From assembly GCA_013153635.1 (NCBI GenBank), contig JAADDZ010000006.1:20490-84489 (forward strand): 64,000 bases of DNA. Reading direction: 5' to 3'. The notes beneath the pieces are model-generated. The model was not told where the DNA came from and searched no databases. It saw only the letters and a list, made by a program, of their open reading frames with translations. A program made the translations under genes and the position numbers. The stretch's first letter is position 1. Each line of letters starts with the position of its first letter. This stretch comes from Aquificota bacterium (GTDB lineage Bacteria > Aquificota > Aquificia > Aquificales > Hydrogenothermaceae). Positions 3,573 to 9,345 of this stretch are shown here, piece by piece.

Positions 3573-6500
3573 TTAATCTTCTTCTTTATTTTGTACTAAC
3601 TTTATAGCTTTTAGTATAAAGTCTCCTTCTATTTTTAATGCTGGGTCTCCCATCGCTGTTCTTTTTGCTATTGGGATTCTTTTTTCATCTACAGATAGTT
3701 TTAAAAATCTTCCCTTTACAGTAGATATTCCTACCAAATCTCCAAGATTAACAGGGAGCATCGAAGCTACATAATCATCTTTATTTAGTTTTACAGCCAT
3801 TATCCCTTTTTGCCCTCTTTTTTTGACAGGAAATTCTTCTTTGTTTACTAGCTTTACATATCCATGGCCTGTTATAGTCATTATGTATCTGTCAGAGTTT
3901 ACTATAAAGCCTCCAACGACTTCATCTCCTTTGTCTAGGTCTATTCCTTCTACTCCTTTTGCTTTTGGTCCTGTTACTCTAACTTGGTTTCTTTCAAACA
4001 GGAGAAGGTCTCCTTTTTTAGTGTATATAGCTAAATAAGATGGGTTGTCATCAGCAAACGCACAGACTACTTCGTTGTCTTCTTCTAGAGGGATTATGTT
4101 CATTCCTTGGGATTTGTAGAATATGTCTTCGAAAGTCATTCTTTTTATTATTCCATTTTTTGTAATTATAAAAATTCTATCTTCATTTCCTTCATTTTTG
4201 TATGCAGTACCTACTATGATTTCATCTTCACCAATCTCTATTTTTCCTTCTTCTTTTGGTAAATCAGCCGCTAAACTCCAGTAGGATTTGCCTTTGTTTG
4301 TTATGAATGCTATAGGGTTTGAGCTTTTGACTTCTTGGATAGAGATTAGAGCTTCCCTAGGTAGTATGCTGTTTTGGACTTCTAATAAAACTTTATCAAA
4401 TATTTCTCTTGAGGTTTCACCTTCGGTCTTGTCTATTCGTTTATTTATTATTCTTCCACTGCTAAAAACTGCTACGATATAGTCTTCTTCAAATGTGAGA
4501 CCTGCTTCTTCTTTTTGGAGTATAACTGTTTTTCTTTCGTCTCCATATTTTAAGAGCATCTCATCTAGTTCTTCTTTGAACACTTTTATTTTTTCTTCTT
4601 CTGAAGATAGTATCCTTTGATATTCATTTATTTTCTCTTTTAGTTGGTCTGATTCTTCTTTTAGTTTTCCTCCTTCTAGTGCTGTAAATCTTGATAGTCT
4701 CATATCTAAAATGGCTGTTGTCTGGGTATCTGATAAATCAAACTCCTTTGTGAGAATCTCTTTTGCTTCATTTGTATCTTTTGAGGCTCTAACTACTTCT
4801 ATTACTCTATCTGCATTTTCTAGAGCTTTTAGTAGTCCTTCTACTATGTGGAGTCTTTTTTCTGCCTTGTCTAGTTCAAAAAGTGTTCTTCTTGTGATTA
4901 CTTGGATTCTGTGTTTGATAAATTCCCACAGTATACCTTTTAGGTCTAGGATTTTTGGCTGTTTATTTACAAGAACTGTAAGGTTGATTGGGATACTTTT
5001 TTGAAGTGATGTACTTCTGTATAATTTTTTTAGAACTTTTTCTGGGTCTGCTTCTCTTTTAAGCTCTATTACTATTCTTATTCCTGTTCTGTCTGATTCA
5101 TCTCTAAGGTCAGATATTCCTTTTTCTTTTCCAGTTCTTACTAGTTCTGCTATTCTTTTGATTAGGTCTACTTTATTGACTTGATATGGTATCTCGTAGA
5201 TTACTATTCTGTGTCTATTACCGGGAAGTTTTTCTATTCGGGCTTTTCCTTTTACTGTTACAGAGCCTCTAGAGTTTTCATATATTTTTATGATGTCTTC
5301 TTTTGGTGTTATCAGTATTCCACCAGTTGGGAAGTCAGGACCTTTTATAAATTGGCACAGTTCCTCTACCGTTGCGTTAGGAAAATCTGCTAGATATTTC
5401 AGTGCTTCTGCTACTTCGGTAAAGTTATGAGGTGGAATGTTTGTGGACAGTCCTACCGCTATACCTGTAGCCCCATTACATATAAGATTAGGGAATTTTG
5501 CCGGTAAAACTTCTGGTTCTTCCATAGAGCCGTCGAAGTTTGGGGTCATATCTACAGTATCTTTATCTATATCTGCAAGCATTTCCATAGCCAGCTTGGT
5601 TAGACGAGCTTCTGTATTATGGTTGATGATTCCATTTGCTACAAAAGAGTGACAATAGCTATTAACTTTTATTGAATAAACTACTTTTTCTCCTGTATCT
5701 TCTACAGATTTAACCTGTGCAAAATAGTATTTATTGTCTAAAAGCTCTTTATAAAAAGCTAAGTCTTCTTTATTGAGTATTTTTTCTAAAGTATTCCACT
5801 GTTTTTCTATTTTGCTGTATCTGTCTATACTGTGTTTCGATAGCCATTTGCTAAAGTTTTTGTTTTTATATTTGTTCTTTATATATTCAAAGACAAATGG
5901 AATAAGGTCTGTTTTACTGTTTGTAGTTTCTTTTAGATTTATTTCTTTTATTGTCTTTTCTAGCTTTCTTTGTTTATCAGATAGAAATCCTATTTTTTCT
6001 GCGAATAGTTTTATATCGTGGTAGTCTGAAATAATAAGTCTGTAGTTTTGTTTATCTTTGTAAATTTTGGAGATAATCTCAAAATTTAAAAGTAAAACTT
6101 GGAGCTGTTTTATTAGTTCTTTGTTGTTTGATTGGTAGGAGATGGTAACTGTACTTTTTTCTTTGTGAATAGAGCCTTTTCCTTCAAATAAAGCTTTTAA
6201 GAAAGCTCTTTGTACCTTTTTGGAAGATTTTAAAACTATGTAAGGGATTTCTTTAACTGTATCTTTGTGATGGACTTGATGTCCTATCAAAGTTTTCCTA
6301 CTTTCTGGTTTTCTTTGATAATCTTTTATTGAATAAGCAGAAACTAAAGCAGTTTCAAGCTTTTCTGTATGTTCTTTATCTGTGGTATCTTCTTGGGATA
6401 CTAGAGAACCAAGTAAAACAGCTTCTTCTTCTGTTAATAACTCTTGAGAGCTATCTATATCATTCTTCCGACTTACTACAAGATAATCTCCAGCTTTGAC

Positions 6501-7142
6501 TTTGTCTAATGTTTTCCAAACATAGATAGGTTTTCCGTTTTTTCCTTTTTCTAATACTAAAACAGGGTGGTTTGTGCTACCTTCTATCTCAAAACCTTCT
6601 ACTGTTTCTACTTTTAATGTTTTGTGTCTTCCACTGTTAAAAAACATAGTTGCAGTGTTTATGTTTCTATTTAACGATTGGACTTTTATACGGATAGGAT
6701 TATCTGAATTTTCCTTAGAATCTGGGACAATATCTTTTATTTTTATTAATCCCTTGTCTGTGTTTACAAGAGTATCTCCAACAACGCAGTACCTCATTGC
6801 GGCAGGGGGGTCACCATCTATAGAACCAAAGTTACCTTGACCTTGAATAAGAGGATACCTAAGTGTAAAATCTTGAGCCATTCTAACAAGAGCATCATAC
6901 ACAGCTGAATCGCCATGGGGGTGATATTTGGCTATTACGTTTCCTACTGTTCTTGCTGATTTTTTAAACTGTTTGTTTGGATACATATTCTCTTCGTACA
7001 TTGCGTATAAAATCCTTCTTTGTACAGGTTTTAAGCCATCTCTTATGTCTGGGATAGCTCTACCAACGATAACAGACATTGCATAGTCTAAATATGAAGA
7101 TTTTACCTCTTCTTCAATAGGTTGCTTAACGATTTCTGACAT
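3573..7142 (-). CDS. gyrA: DNA gyrase subunit A with an in-frame intein
   Basis: Subunit A of gyrase, which cleaves and religates DNA to introduce negative supercoils. The ORF encodes 1189 residues. Removing a 391-residue intein (residues 119-509) leaves 798, a normal GyrA length. The N-terminal extein has the winged-helix domain with [21 protein letters not shown] and ends in DPPAAMRY, whose Tyr118 is the catalytic tyrosine; the C-extein resumes with [14 protein letters not shown] coiled-coil tower follows and then the beta-pinwheel C-terminal domain, which carries a degenerate GyrA-box-like KKRGQKG. Start is ATG. Because the intein sits right after the active-site tyrosine, gyrase can only work after protein splicing. 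gyrB is not in the window. Confidence 0.97.
5616..6788 (-). mobile_element. GyrA intein with degenerate LAGLIDADG endonuclease domain
   Basis: The intein is 391 residues and is inserted between Tyr118 and Thr of the GyrA active site, the same site used by mycobacterial GyrA inteins. Splicing residues look intact: Cys1 in CVVGDTLV, block B with STNHPVLV, the C-terminal block [17 protein letters not shown] ending in His-Asn, and Thr as the +1 residue. A central insertion of about 250 residues corresponds to a dodecapeptide homing endonuclease. Its two motifs read LLGSLVSQE and LKALFEGKG, where the catalytic aspartate position holds Gln and Lys. Splicing is therefore predicted to be functional and DNA cleavage lost. 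Confidence 0.95.
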
Positions 7143-7230: not shown

Positions 7231-7539
7231 TTAGTTTTTTTCTAATTTTAGGAAATATTTGAACTTTTCATAAAATTTAATCTTTTTTAGCTGACTTAAA
7301 CTTTTTATATCTGTTTTCTTTCTTATAAAGAGGATTTTTTTAACATTTTTCTTTCCTATGTAAGGCACAAACAGAAGGTCTGTTTCAGATGCAGTGTTTA
7401 TATCTATCTGTAAATCTGTTTTTTTAAAAGAAGGTTTAAAAAAGATTTCTGTAGAAAAGTTAACTAAGCTAGCAAAAATTAAGATGTATACAGCAAATAA
7501 CTTTTGAATATTTGCCAGTTCCCAGTTTATACTACTCAA
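7231..7539 (-). CDS. ComEA-like helix-hairpin-helix protein
   Basis: A 102-residue protein with an N-terminal membrane anchor (about residues 13-28) and a ComEA/T2SK-type helix-hairpin-helix domain, seen as INTASETDLLFVPYIGKKNVKKIL at about 47-70. Such domains bind DNA without sequence specificity, and in ComEA they take up transforming DNA at the outer face of the membrane. The likely start is TTG at 7539, which lies 8 bases inside the end of nurA, with a purine-rich GGGAAG upstream, so it is translationally coupled to nurA. No comEC is visible here. A competence role is plausible but not shown. Confidence 0.8.
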   Translation of the reverse strand: MSSINWELANIQKLFAVYILIFASLVNFSTEIFFKPSFKKTDLQIDINTASETDLLFVPYIGKKNVKKILFIRKKTDIKSLSQLKKIKFYEKFKYFLKLEKN

Positions 7540-8701
7540 CTACTTCCCTTCCCCTTTTTTCTAAGGTTAAGCCTAAAATAGACTCTATTAATTCCATATC
7601 TTTGTTTTTTATTCTTACGTCAGCATCAGCTTTTTTCAAGATAAAAGGGTATCCTCCTGCTGAAAGGGAAAAAAGAATATCGTTTATATACTGCTGTCTT
7701 ATTGTTTCTCTATTTGGATTTTCGTATATCTCTATGAGAGATATAACCGAGTAAGAGGAATACTTAGAGTAAAAGTATTTTATCTGTACATCTTTTAACT
7801 CTACAGCTTTTTTAGTCTCTTTTTTTTCAAAAACTTCTGAAAATTCCCACTCTTTTGTTTTACTTTTACTTTCCATATCCACGTATCTCTCTTTAGAGAA
7901 CCCGGGATTTTGAATAAATTTATAAAAAACCATAATATCAGGTATAGAGCTGTTAAACAGCTCTGTTCCTTTTGATGTTTTGGCTATACCCATAATAATA
8001 GGATTCCAGTCTAATTTGTAAAAGAGATGATGCAAAAGTAAAAAATACTCAAAATAGGCTAGTTTTGCTAATGCCGCTTCAAAAACATCTCTTTTTGATG
8101 CTGTCTCTTGTCCAAACTTTTCTATAAGTTTAGAGAATAAAAGCTCTTTTAGTTTTGTAGATTGGGAGGTTATATCATAATCAAAAAGATATTTTTCTAT
8201 ATAAGGGATTAACTCTCCAGATAGTTTTGCAAGTTCCCCTCCAAAATCTTTGTCTACAAACCATTTTGTTTTGGGAGGAGGTAATATAAATCTACCGCTT
8301 AGAGTTCCATCTAGCAGAATAACATCAGGTTTTTCTTTTGCAGAAACTTTTAGTAAAGATTTCATTTCAACTAAAAACATCAACAGCCTAAAGTAGCTCT
8401 CTGCAAACTCTTGATTTTTGATAAGAGATATACCTATATCTCCTACAAAACTCTCACTAACCATCACATTATTATCAAAACAAAGTCCGTATCCTGCAAC
8501 AGAATAAAGGTAAAATCCTAGATAAACTTTCCTATTGAAAGAACCATCAGAGGCACAAGCTTTACAGTTTATCTCTCTAGGGAAATAGTCTATCCAATGC
8601 TTTATAACATCATCTTCACTTATTTCTGAATCTAGGTGGAGTTTTATAAGTTCTAGTTCCTTTTTTAGTTTATAGGTTTTCTCTAAAAGTTCTGGTCTCA
8701 T
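7532..8701 (-). CDS. nurA: NurA-domain nuclease
   Basis: A 389-residue NurA-family nuclease. In archaea NurA is a 5'-3' exonuclease and ssDNA endonuclease that works with the HerA translocase in double-strand-break end resection. The two conserved acidic motifs are visible: Asp52 in ACASDGSF and Asp131 in VILLDGTLSGRFI, with the usual long helical middle and a C-terminal segment ending in a charged tail. Start is ATG at 8701. It overlaps and probably drives the ComEA-like gene. herA is absent from this window, so the partner must be elsewhere or be different. The family call is based on motifs and length. Confidence 0.85.
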   Translation of the reverse strand: MRPELLEKTYKLKKELELIKLHLDSEISEDDVIKHWIDYFPREINCKACASDGSFNRKVYLGFYLYSVAGYGLCFDNNVMVSESFVGDIGISLIKNQEFAESYFRLLMFLVEMKSLLKVSAKEKPDVILLDGTLSGRFILPPPKTKWFVDKDFGGELAKLSGELIPYIEKYLFDYDITSQSTKLKELLFSKLIEKFGQETASKRDVFEAALAKLAYFEYFLLLHHLFYKLDWNPIIMGIAKTSKGTELFNSSIPDIMVFYKFIQNPGFSKERYVDMESKSKTKEWEFSEVFEKKETKKAVELKDVQIKYFYSKYSSYSVISLIEIYENPNRETIRQQYINDILFSLSAGGYPFILKKADADVRIKNKDMELIESILGLTLEKRGREVVE

Positions 8702-8856: not shown

Positions 8857-9345
8857 ATGAAAACAATAGCTATAGTGATAACACTGTTCTTTCTTGGTTA
8901 CAGTTACGGTTACGAAGACCATGTAAAATATGAGCATGGATACTTTTACGTAATAATAGATAAGGAAAAGTTTGGAAGCGTTAATTCTGAACTCTTACAG
9001 CAGATAGAAAATCACGGGTGGGAAGTTATCTATACAATGAATGTGGATAGAACTACAAAAACAAACACACCTTATAAAACCCATCTCCTTTGTAAAAGGG
9101 ACTATTTAAGAGAAGGTTTAGAGACCTTTAAACTTATAGGTGTTATTATCCCATGTAGGATTGCTATATTCCAAGAAAAAAACTATGTAAAAATCGCTGT
9201 AGAGGATATAAAGGAGATTGTTAAGAAATATAACCCAAATCCGAAGTTTTATAGATTTATAACAGCTATAGAGCAAGAGATGATAGATATTTTAAACAGA
9301 ACCGCAAATGAATTTTCGAAGAAACGTCTTATCCCTCAATACTGA
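8857..9345 (+). CDS. secreted DUF302-domain protein
   Basis: A 162-residue protein with a short signal peptide (about residues 1-18, MKTIAIVITLFFLGYSYG) and a DUF302 domain. The domain hallmark is the strand-turn VIIPCRIAIFQEKNYVKIAV near residues 96-117, with a single conserved cysteine. The biochemical role of DUF302 is unknown; members are often found near sulfur or redox genes. Start is ATG, with an AGGGGT ribosome-binding site 7 bases upstream. It stands alone between divergent nurA and pepA. A possible -35 TTGACA sits at 8795-8800 but no strong -10 follows. Confidence 0.75.
   Translation: MKTIAIVITLFFLGYSYGYEDHVKYEHGYFYVIIDKEKFGSVNSELLQQIENHGWEVIYTMNVDRTTKTNTPYKTHLLCKRDYLREGLETFKLIGVIIPCRIAIFQEKNYVKIAVEDIKEIVKKYNPNPKFYRFITAIEQEMIDILNRTANEFSKKRLIPQY

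Follow-up and report, generated by a model that had tools for sequence, protein, structure and literature searches.

A GyrA intein of the Hydrogenothermaceae that keeps its splicing residues and has a decayed LAGLIDADG homing endonuclease

The gyrA gene in the window analysed here, a 64,000-nt stretch of DNA from a heat-loving member of the Hydrogenothermaceae (genome G000 in our survey), almost certainly carries a class 1 cis-splicing intein whose homing endonuclease has been lost and which is now inherited with its host gene. The splicing domain retains every residue that is invariant among intact relatives at the same site, while the endonuclease region between its two halves has accumulated substitutions and in-frame deletions.

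Anatomy of the intein and dependence of gyrase on splicing

As computed from the window sequence, the gyrA open reading frame (3573-7142, minus strand) encodes 1189 aa, of which residues 119-509 form an in-frame intein of 391 aa (Table 1). Its Cys1 directly follows Tyr118 of GyrA, its C-terminal end consists of a penultimate His390 and a terminal Asn391, and the next extein residue is Thr+1, so that the predicted spliced protein is 798 aa long; all of this had been claimed in the original prediction and could be read again from the sequence. The insertion lies between the Tyr and the Thr of MRY/TEAR and is orthologous to other inteins found there. Block B is of the TxxH type, and here the original prediction was right about the histidine (His74) and slightly wrong about the motif, which is Ser-x-x-His (S71-T72-N73-H74) with its Thr one residue later; the His is invariant, and Ser occupies the Thr position of TxxH in 25 of the 29 sequences compared. 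Pfam recognizes Intein_splicing and LAGLIDADG_3 in the precursor, together with DNA_topoisoIV in the N-extein and DNA_gyraseA_C in the C-extein, and among the NCBIfam models intein_Nterm scores above its cut-off and GyrA_w_intein, which spans both extein-intein junctions, scores below its own.

Table 1. Features of the gyrA gene and its intein, in window coordinates
Feature	Position	Strand	Basis
gyrA N-extein, residues 1-118, ending in catalytic Tyr118 (codon 6789-6791)	6789..7142	-	sequence; DNA_topoisoIV match
GyrA intein, 391 aa, Cys1 to Asn391	5616..6788	-	sequence; Pfam; NCBIfam; alignment of relatives
N-terminal splicing region, intein residues 1-111, blocks A and B (Ser71, His74)	6456..6788	-	0 invariant columns changed; fold; block B
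Decayed LAGLIDADG homing endonuclease region, intein residues 112-352	5733..6455	-	14/60 invariant columns changed; rates; model
First dodecapeptide LLGSLVSQE, Gln132 (codon 6393-6395) replacing Glu; followed by 9-residue beta-hairpin deletion	6390..6416	-	sequence; alignment
Second dodecapeptide LKALFEGKG, Lys204 (codon 6177-6179) replacing Asp	6174..6200	-	sequence; alignment
C-terminal splicing region, intein residues 353-391, blocks F and G, Cys379 (codon 5652-5654), His390-Asn391	5616..5732	-	sequence; invariant columns
gyrA C-extein, starting at Thr+1 (codon 5613-5615), stop codon included	3573..5615	-	sequence; DNA_gyraseA_C match

Only two cysteines occur in the intein, Cys1 and Cys379, and all sequences compared share them. 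Cys1 is the ordinary nucleophile of class 1 inteins and is needed for splicing in any case. Class 3 inteins are without a Cys1 nucleophile and have a Trp/Cys/Thr motif, with a Cys at block F position 4; a class 3 mechanism using the conserved cysteine of the CHSF segment is ruled out here, as Cys1 is present, block F position 4 is Ser372, and Cys379, which sits in CHSF, occupies a different block F position. From the complete conservation of the relevant residues and from the predicted fold, we infer that splicing by the class 1 route is intact. The open reading frame implies translation as a 1189-aa precursor, in which an N-S acyl shift at Cys1, with participation of the block B His74, and attack by Thr+1 would give a branched intermediate; cyclization of Asn391 with His390 would then free the 391-aa intein and join Tyr118 to Thr119, giving the 798-aa GyrA.

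No second GyrA- or ParC-like gene was found at E<=1e-10 in the genome, which is 96.3% complete, and gyrase therefore very likely depends on splicing, as had been suggested. For the same reason, the reading frame and the splicing domain would be expected to stay under constraint. The genome contains one gyrA and one intein; no others were found in it. Upstream of gyrA (window 7231-8701, minus strand) are genes for a small helix-hairpin-helix protein and a NurA-domain nuclease that overlap by a few bases, and at 8857-9345 on the plus strand an open reading frame of 162 aa with a signal-peptide-like start and no Pfam match lies just before an M17 aminopeptidase gene.

Decay of the endonuclease region

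The original prediction of conserved splicing residues alongside a dead LAGLIDADG endonuclease is supported by invariant columns, substitution rates and the fold model, which make loss of activity very likely. Across 20 intact relatives, 41 columns of the splicing domain and 60 of the endonuclease region are invariant, and the window intein retains 41/41 of the former and 46/60 of the latter (Fisher p 0.0006), whereas intact inteins in a leave-one-out control change 0-4 columns per region. The corresponding counts are 41/41 and 45/60 for its sister species G074, 41/41 and 43/60 for G104, 41/41 and 50/60 for G111, and 39/41 and 14/60 (46/60 changed) for G107, whose intein is 274 aa long.

Among the changed residues are those at the eighth, catalytic, position of both dodecapeptides, where an active LAGLIDADG enzyme is expected to have an acid and the window intein has Gln132 and Lys204, as originally noted. 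Whether a corrected alignment might restore Asp in both motifs had been posed as a test; the alignment of relatives again gives Gln and Lys. Intact members of the family read SEG/GDG where the window reads SQE/GKG, so that the ancestral acid of motif 1 was Glu rather than Asp, and Glu is found there in 43 of the 47 same-site inteins of a wider set in which a simple pattern located the motif. The original account of decay, correct as to these point changes, overlooked three in-frame deletions that remove 9, 2 and 14 residues when the window intein is aligned with the 416-aa relatives, and that should be no less harmful to the endonuclease than the point changes.

In a relative-rate test of the window intein against its intact sister G068, with G082 as outgroup, the splicing domain gave 7:7 changes (p=1), as opposed to 18:5 for LAGLIDADG repeat 1 (p 0.007), 14:1 for repeat 2 (p 0.0008) and 10:0 for the subdomain after repeat 2, and the faster evolution of both repeats was upheld with other choices of sister and outgroup. 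Similarly, the ratio of dN in the endonuclease region to dN in the splicing domain is 2.6-2.7 when the window is paired with each of three intact sisters and 1.2-1.8 when these sisters are paired with one another.

Modelled with AlphaFold, the window intein (mean pLDDT 86.8) has a splicing domain mostly above 90 and a segment, residues 155-177, below 50. Its splicing domain superimposes on the Mycobacterium xenopi GyrA intein (1AM2) with Z 24.8 and an rmsd of 1.9 Å over 179 residues at 37% identity, a match that points to a HINT fold. The first LAGLIDADG repeat is modelled as two helices and no beta-strands, while the model of the intact relative G075 (mean pLDDT 93.2) has helix-strand-strand-helix-strand-strand-helix there, with all four strands at high confidence; repeat 2 and the C-terminal subdomain of the window intein are still predicted to fold with good confidence. 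The strandless first repeat of the model, together with the deletions, means that the two alpha-beta-beta-alpha repeats with intact DNA-binding sheets expected of a working enzyme are not both found. Consistent with this, Foldseek matched the intact relative to 99 solved chains at E<=0.001, free-standing homing endonucleases among them (I-WcaI, E 2.4e-7; I-DmoI, E about 1e-5), versus 22 for the window intein, which reaches such enzymes only at E about 1e-3 or weaker.

Sequence, model and rates thus show that the endonuclease has evolved under relaxed constraint, and since both catalytic acids are gone, as is the DNA-contacting beta-sheet of the first repeat, we infer that it no longer cuts.

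What the remnant does now, if anything, allows more than one reading. It might be retained as a scaffold for the splicing domain, with cutting gone and folding or the timing of splicing dependent on it, so that the intein would be partly domesticated; we consider this unlikely. The pairwise dN/dS of the endonuclease region between the two decayed inteins G000 and G074 is ~0.26 (0.264/0.999), above that of intact pairs and well below 1, and the modelled folding of repeat 2 and the subdomain after it would fit such a role. There are also inteins in which splicing can reportedly suffer when the endonuclease is removed or mutated, such as Mja TFIIB (reviewed in PMC7765530) and, according to a reference given in PMC10643990, Haloferax PolB-c. 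However, recent decay would account for the same dN/dS, G107 has lost most of the region and keeps nearly all of its splicing columns, and the M. xenopi GyrA intein splices with no endonuclease at all. The ratio tells somewhat against our main reading and means either that decay is recent or that the remnant has stayed under partial constraint, perhaps through support of splicing or folding. About as unlikely is a broader proposal in which the GyrA inteins of the phylum are a graded decay series whose remnant, partly constrained because it supports the splicing of an essential gyrase or regulates it through Cys1/Cys379, is partly domesticated and not a passive relic.

The original prediction also raised the possibility of temperature- or redox-sensitive splicing through Cys1. 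A redox or temperature switch on gyrase, with Cys1 paired with Cys379, seems to us very improbable: no sign of regulation was seen, Cys1 has to be kept for splicing anyway, and relatives whose endonuclease is active retain Cys379 just as well, so that its conservation is not tied to fixation. That these are the only two cysteines, conserved throughout, is in its favour, as is the oxidation-sensitive splicing reported for a mycobacterial DnaB intein (PMC6195587), but nothing beyond the conserved cysteines points to conditional splicing. An endonuclease that still cuts by means of non-canonical residues is barely conceivable and was rejected on motif, structure and rates; the open reading frame is intact and repeat 2 is still matched by LAGLIDADG_3, but both catalytic acids are gone, one of them replaced by Lys, the hairpin of the first repeat is deleted and substitution is accelerated. 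It is just as hard to believe that splicing too is defective, with gyrase coming from an intein-free gyrA that escaped detection (the completeness of the genome leaves room for a missed second copy) or functional with the insert in place, given the full set of invariant splicing columns, their normal rate, the single gyrA found and an insert directly after the catalytic Tyr.

Distribution, transfer and loss

A survey of 136 genomes of the phylum Aquificota found gyrA in 124. An intein at exactly the same gyrA codon as in the window, whole or cut by a contig end, is present in 32/136 genomes, so that the insertion is not due to chance. Empty alleles, which the original prediction suggested looking for, do exist: in the window's family, 19 genomes have the Tyr-site intein and 13 have a clean intein-free gyrA, two of the latter in the neighbouring genus g2, whose other species carry the intein. 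Intein-free gyrA genes of the family, 77-90% identical, align across the insertion site as expected for an in-frame insertion. Inteins at the site are graded in length (416, 402, 391, 368, 363 and 274 aa), and the wider same-site set extends to Bacteroidota, Campylobacterota, Armatimonadota, Patescibacteria and several archaea. In the wider contig search, a scan with the window protein alone, whose patterns came from its degenerate stretches, gave no matches, while one with an alignment of intact inteins did.

Three contigs labelled viral in IMG/VR (L102, L103, L148) have a type IIA topoisomerase gene interrupted by an intein at the corresponding tyrosine, and Staphylococcus jumbo phages are annotated as having a GyrA intein, known here from that annotation rather than from its insertion site; both are possible vehicles for movement of the intein between bacteria.

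Named matches assign the host to the Hydrogenothermaceae: the same-genus genome G075 matches L182, a contig of a Hydrogenothermaceae MAG, and further relatives are Hydrogenothermus and Persephonella MAGs. The extein tree gives the window's genus as (G075,(G000,G074)); the trio is fully supported and the pair has 98/88. In the intein tree, G000 and G074 instead join genus g2 (100/100), away from G075. Strict vertical inheritance of one intein in the genus is rejected (AU p 0.0007 for the whole intein, 0.0022 for the splicing domain alone), and the conflict between the trees therefore indicates that inteins have moved between genera of the family. It seems likely from this transfer, from the intact relatives and from the empty alleles that the central LAGLIDADG domain formerly cut intein-free gyrA and drove homing. 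The claim that the intein was fixed in this lineage holds only in part: all three species of the genus, at one genome per species, carry a Tyr-site intein, but that of G075 is intact and of different ancestry, while those of G000 and G074 are decayed.

Both trees pair G000 with G074, although their placement as sisters in the intein tree (88/84) could have been helped by long branches. Their deletions overlap but are not identical, and they share one derived residue, G280D (G075 numbering), while their other changes differ. A single loss of the endonuclease before the two split, with each copy eroding on its own afterwards, is plausible, with two independent losses also compatible with these data. 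As the losses in G104, G111 and G107 are separate from these, there have been at least four in the phylum. The intein of G107 (L092) has only scraps of the endonuclease left, and that of G111 (L091) is ~51 residues shorter than that of its near-identical neighbour G110 (L090), which is intact, so decay can be fast.

A second GyrA intein, of 431-442 aa and with acidic residues in both dodecapeptides, was observed in L067, L068, L069, L070, L071, L072, L073, L074 and L075. It interrupts the quinolone-resistance region at SARIVGE^C...HN/CLGKYHPHGD, and several gyrA genes have both inteins, giving open reading frames of 1615-1660 aa; among the papers searched, none was found that links a gyrA intein insertion site with quinolone resistance. 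The intein-free gyrA of G065 (L034) reads ARIVGECLGK, a motif that in this survey is otherwise confined to carriers of the second intein and that differs in the genus-mates examined. It resembles the trace of a former intein, acquired with co-conversion of its flanks and then precisely lost.

Comparison with known inteins

Mycobacterial GyrA inteins, that of M. xenopi included, interrupt GyrA at this very position behind the catalytic Tyr, in keeping with a GyrA_w_intein model that spans both junctions. The original comparison with them is borne out: the M. xenopi GyrA intein (PDB 1AM2, 4OZ6) is the best match by sequence among solved structures and shares the splicing fold, Cys1 and the His-Asn end. 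It differs in being minimal (198 residues, 1AM2 numbering) and having no endonuclease, whereas the window intein retains ~200 residues of a decayed one, and in having Thr where block B of the window has Ser and Asp where the window has Cys before the block F His. The full-length Hydrogenothermaceae GyrA inteins (L185 from a Hydrogenothermus sp. MAG, L183 from a Persephonella sp. MAG, and L182) are orthologous, at the same site and about 66-77% identical to that of the window, but unlike it are 416 aa long, retain the catalytic acid of each motif (SEG, GDG) and have their repeats intact. PI-PfuI, PI-PkoII and TliVMA (PDB 1DQ3, 2CW7, 7QSS) have the same architecture of splicing domain plus LAGLIDADG endonuclease, from which the window intein departs in lacking the first-repeat beta-sheet and both catalytic acids. 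Among the papers searched, no earlier report was found on Persephonella inteins or on the homing endonucleases of Aquificae GyrA inteins.

The homing cycle of Goddard and Burt (reviewed in PMC1654191) predicts that once an intein is fixed its endonuclease will decay, with selection continuing to act on splicing. The window intein is a case of such decay at an intermediate stage, an instance of a known process and individually expected. Under the cycle, alleles in intact, decaying, minimal and empty states should occur side by side, although intermediates are not always found; here one bacterial site shows all of its stages among close relatives, and the natural variants at the GyrA Tyr site make the order of decay, its rate and any help of the remnant to splicing directly testable. 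The closest parallel is provided by the fungal PRP8 inteins (PMC1508164), where likewise a single site has intact-endonuclease, endonuclease-less and empty states in close species, but where no intermediates with endonuclease remnants, of which the GyrA set has several (402, 391, 368, 363 and 274 aa), are reported.
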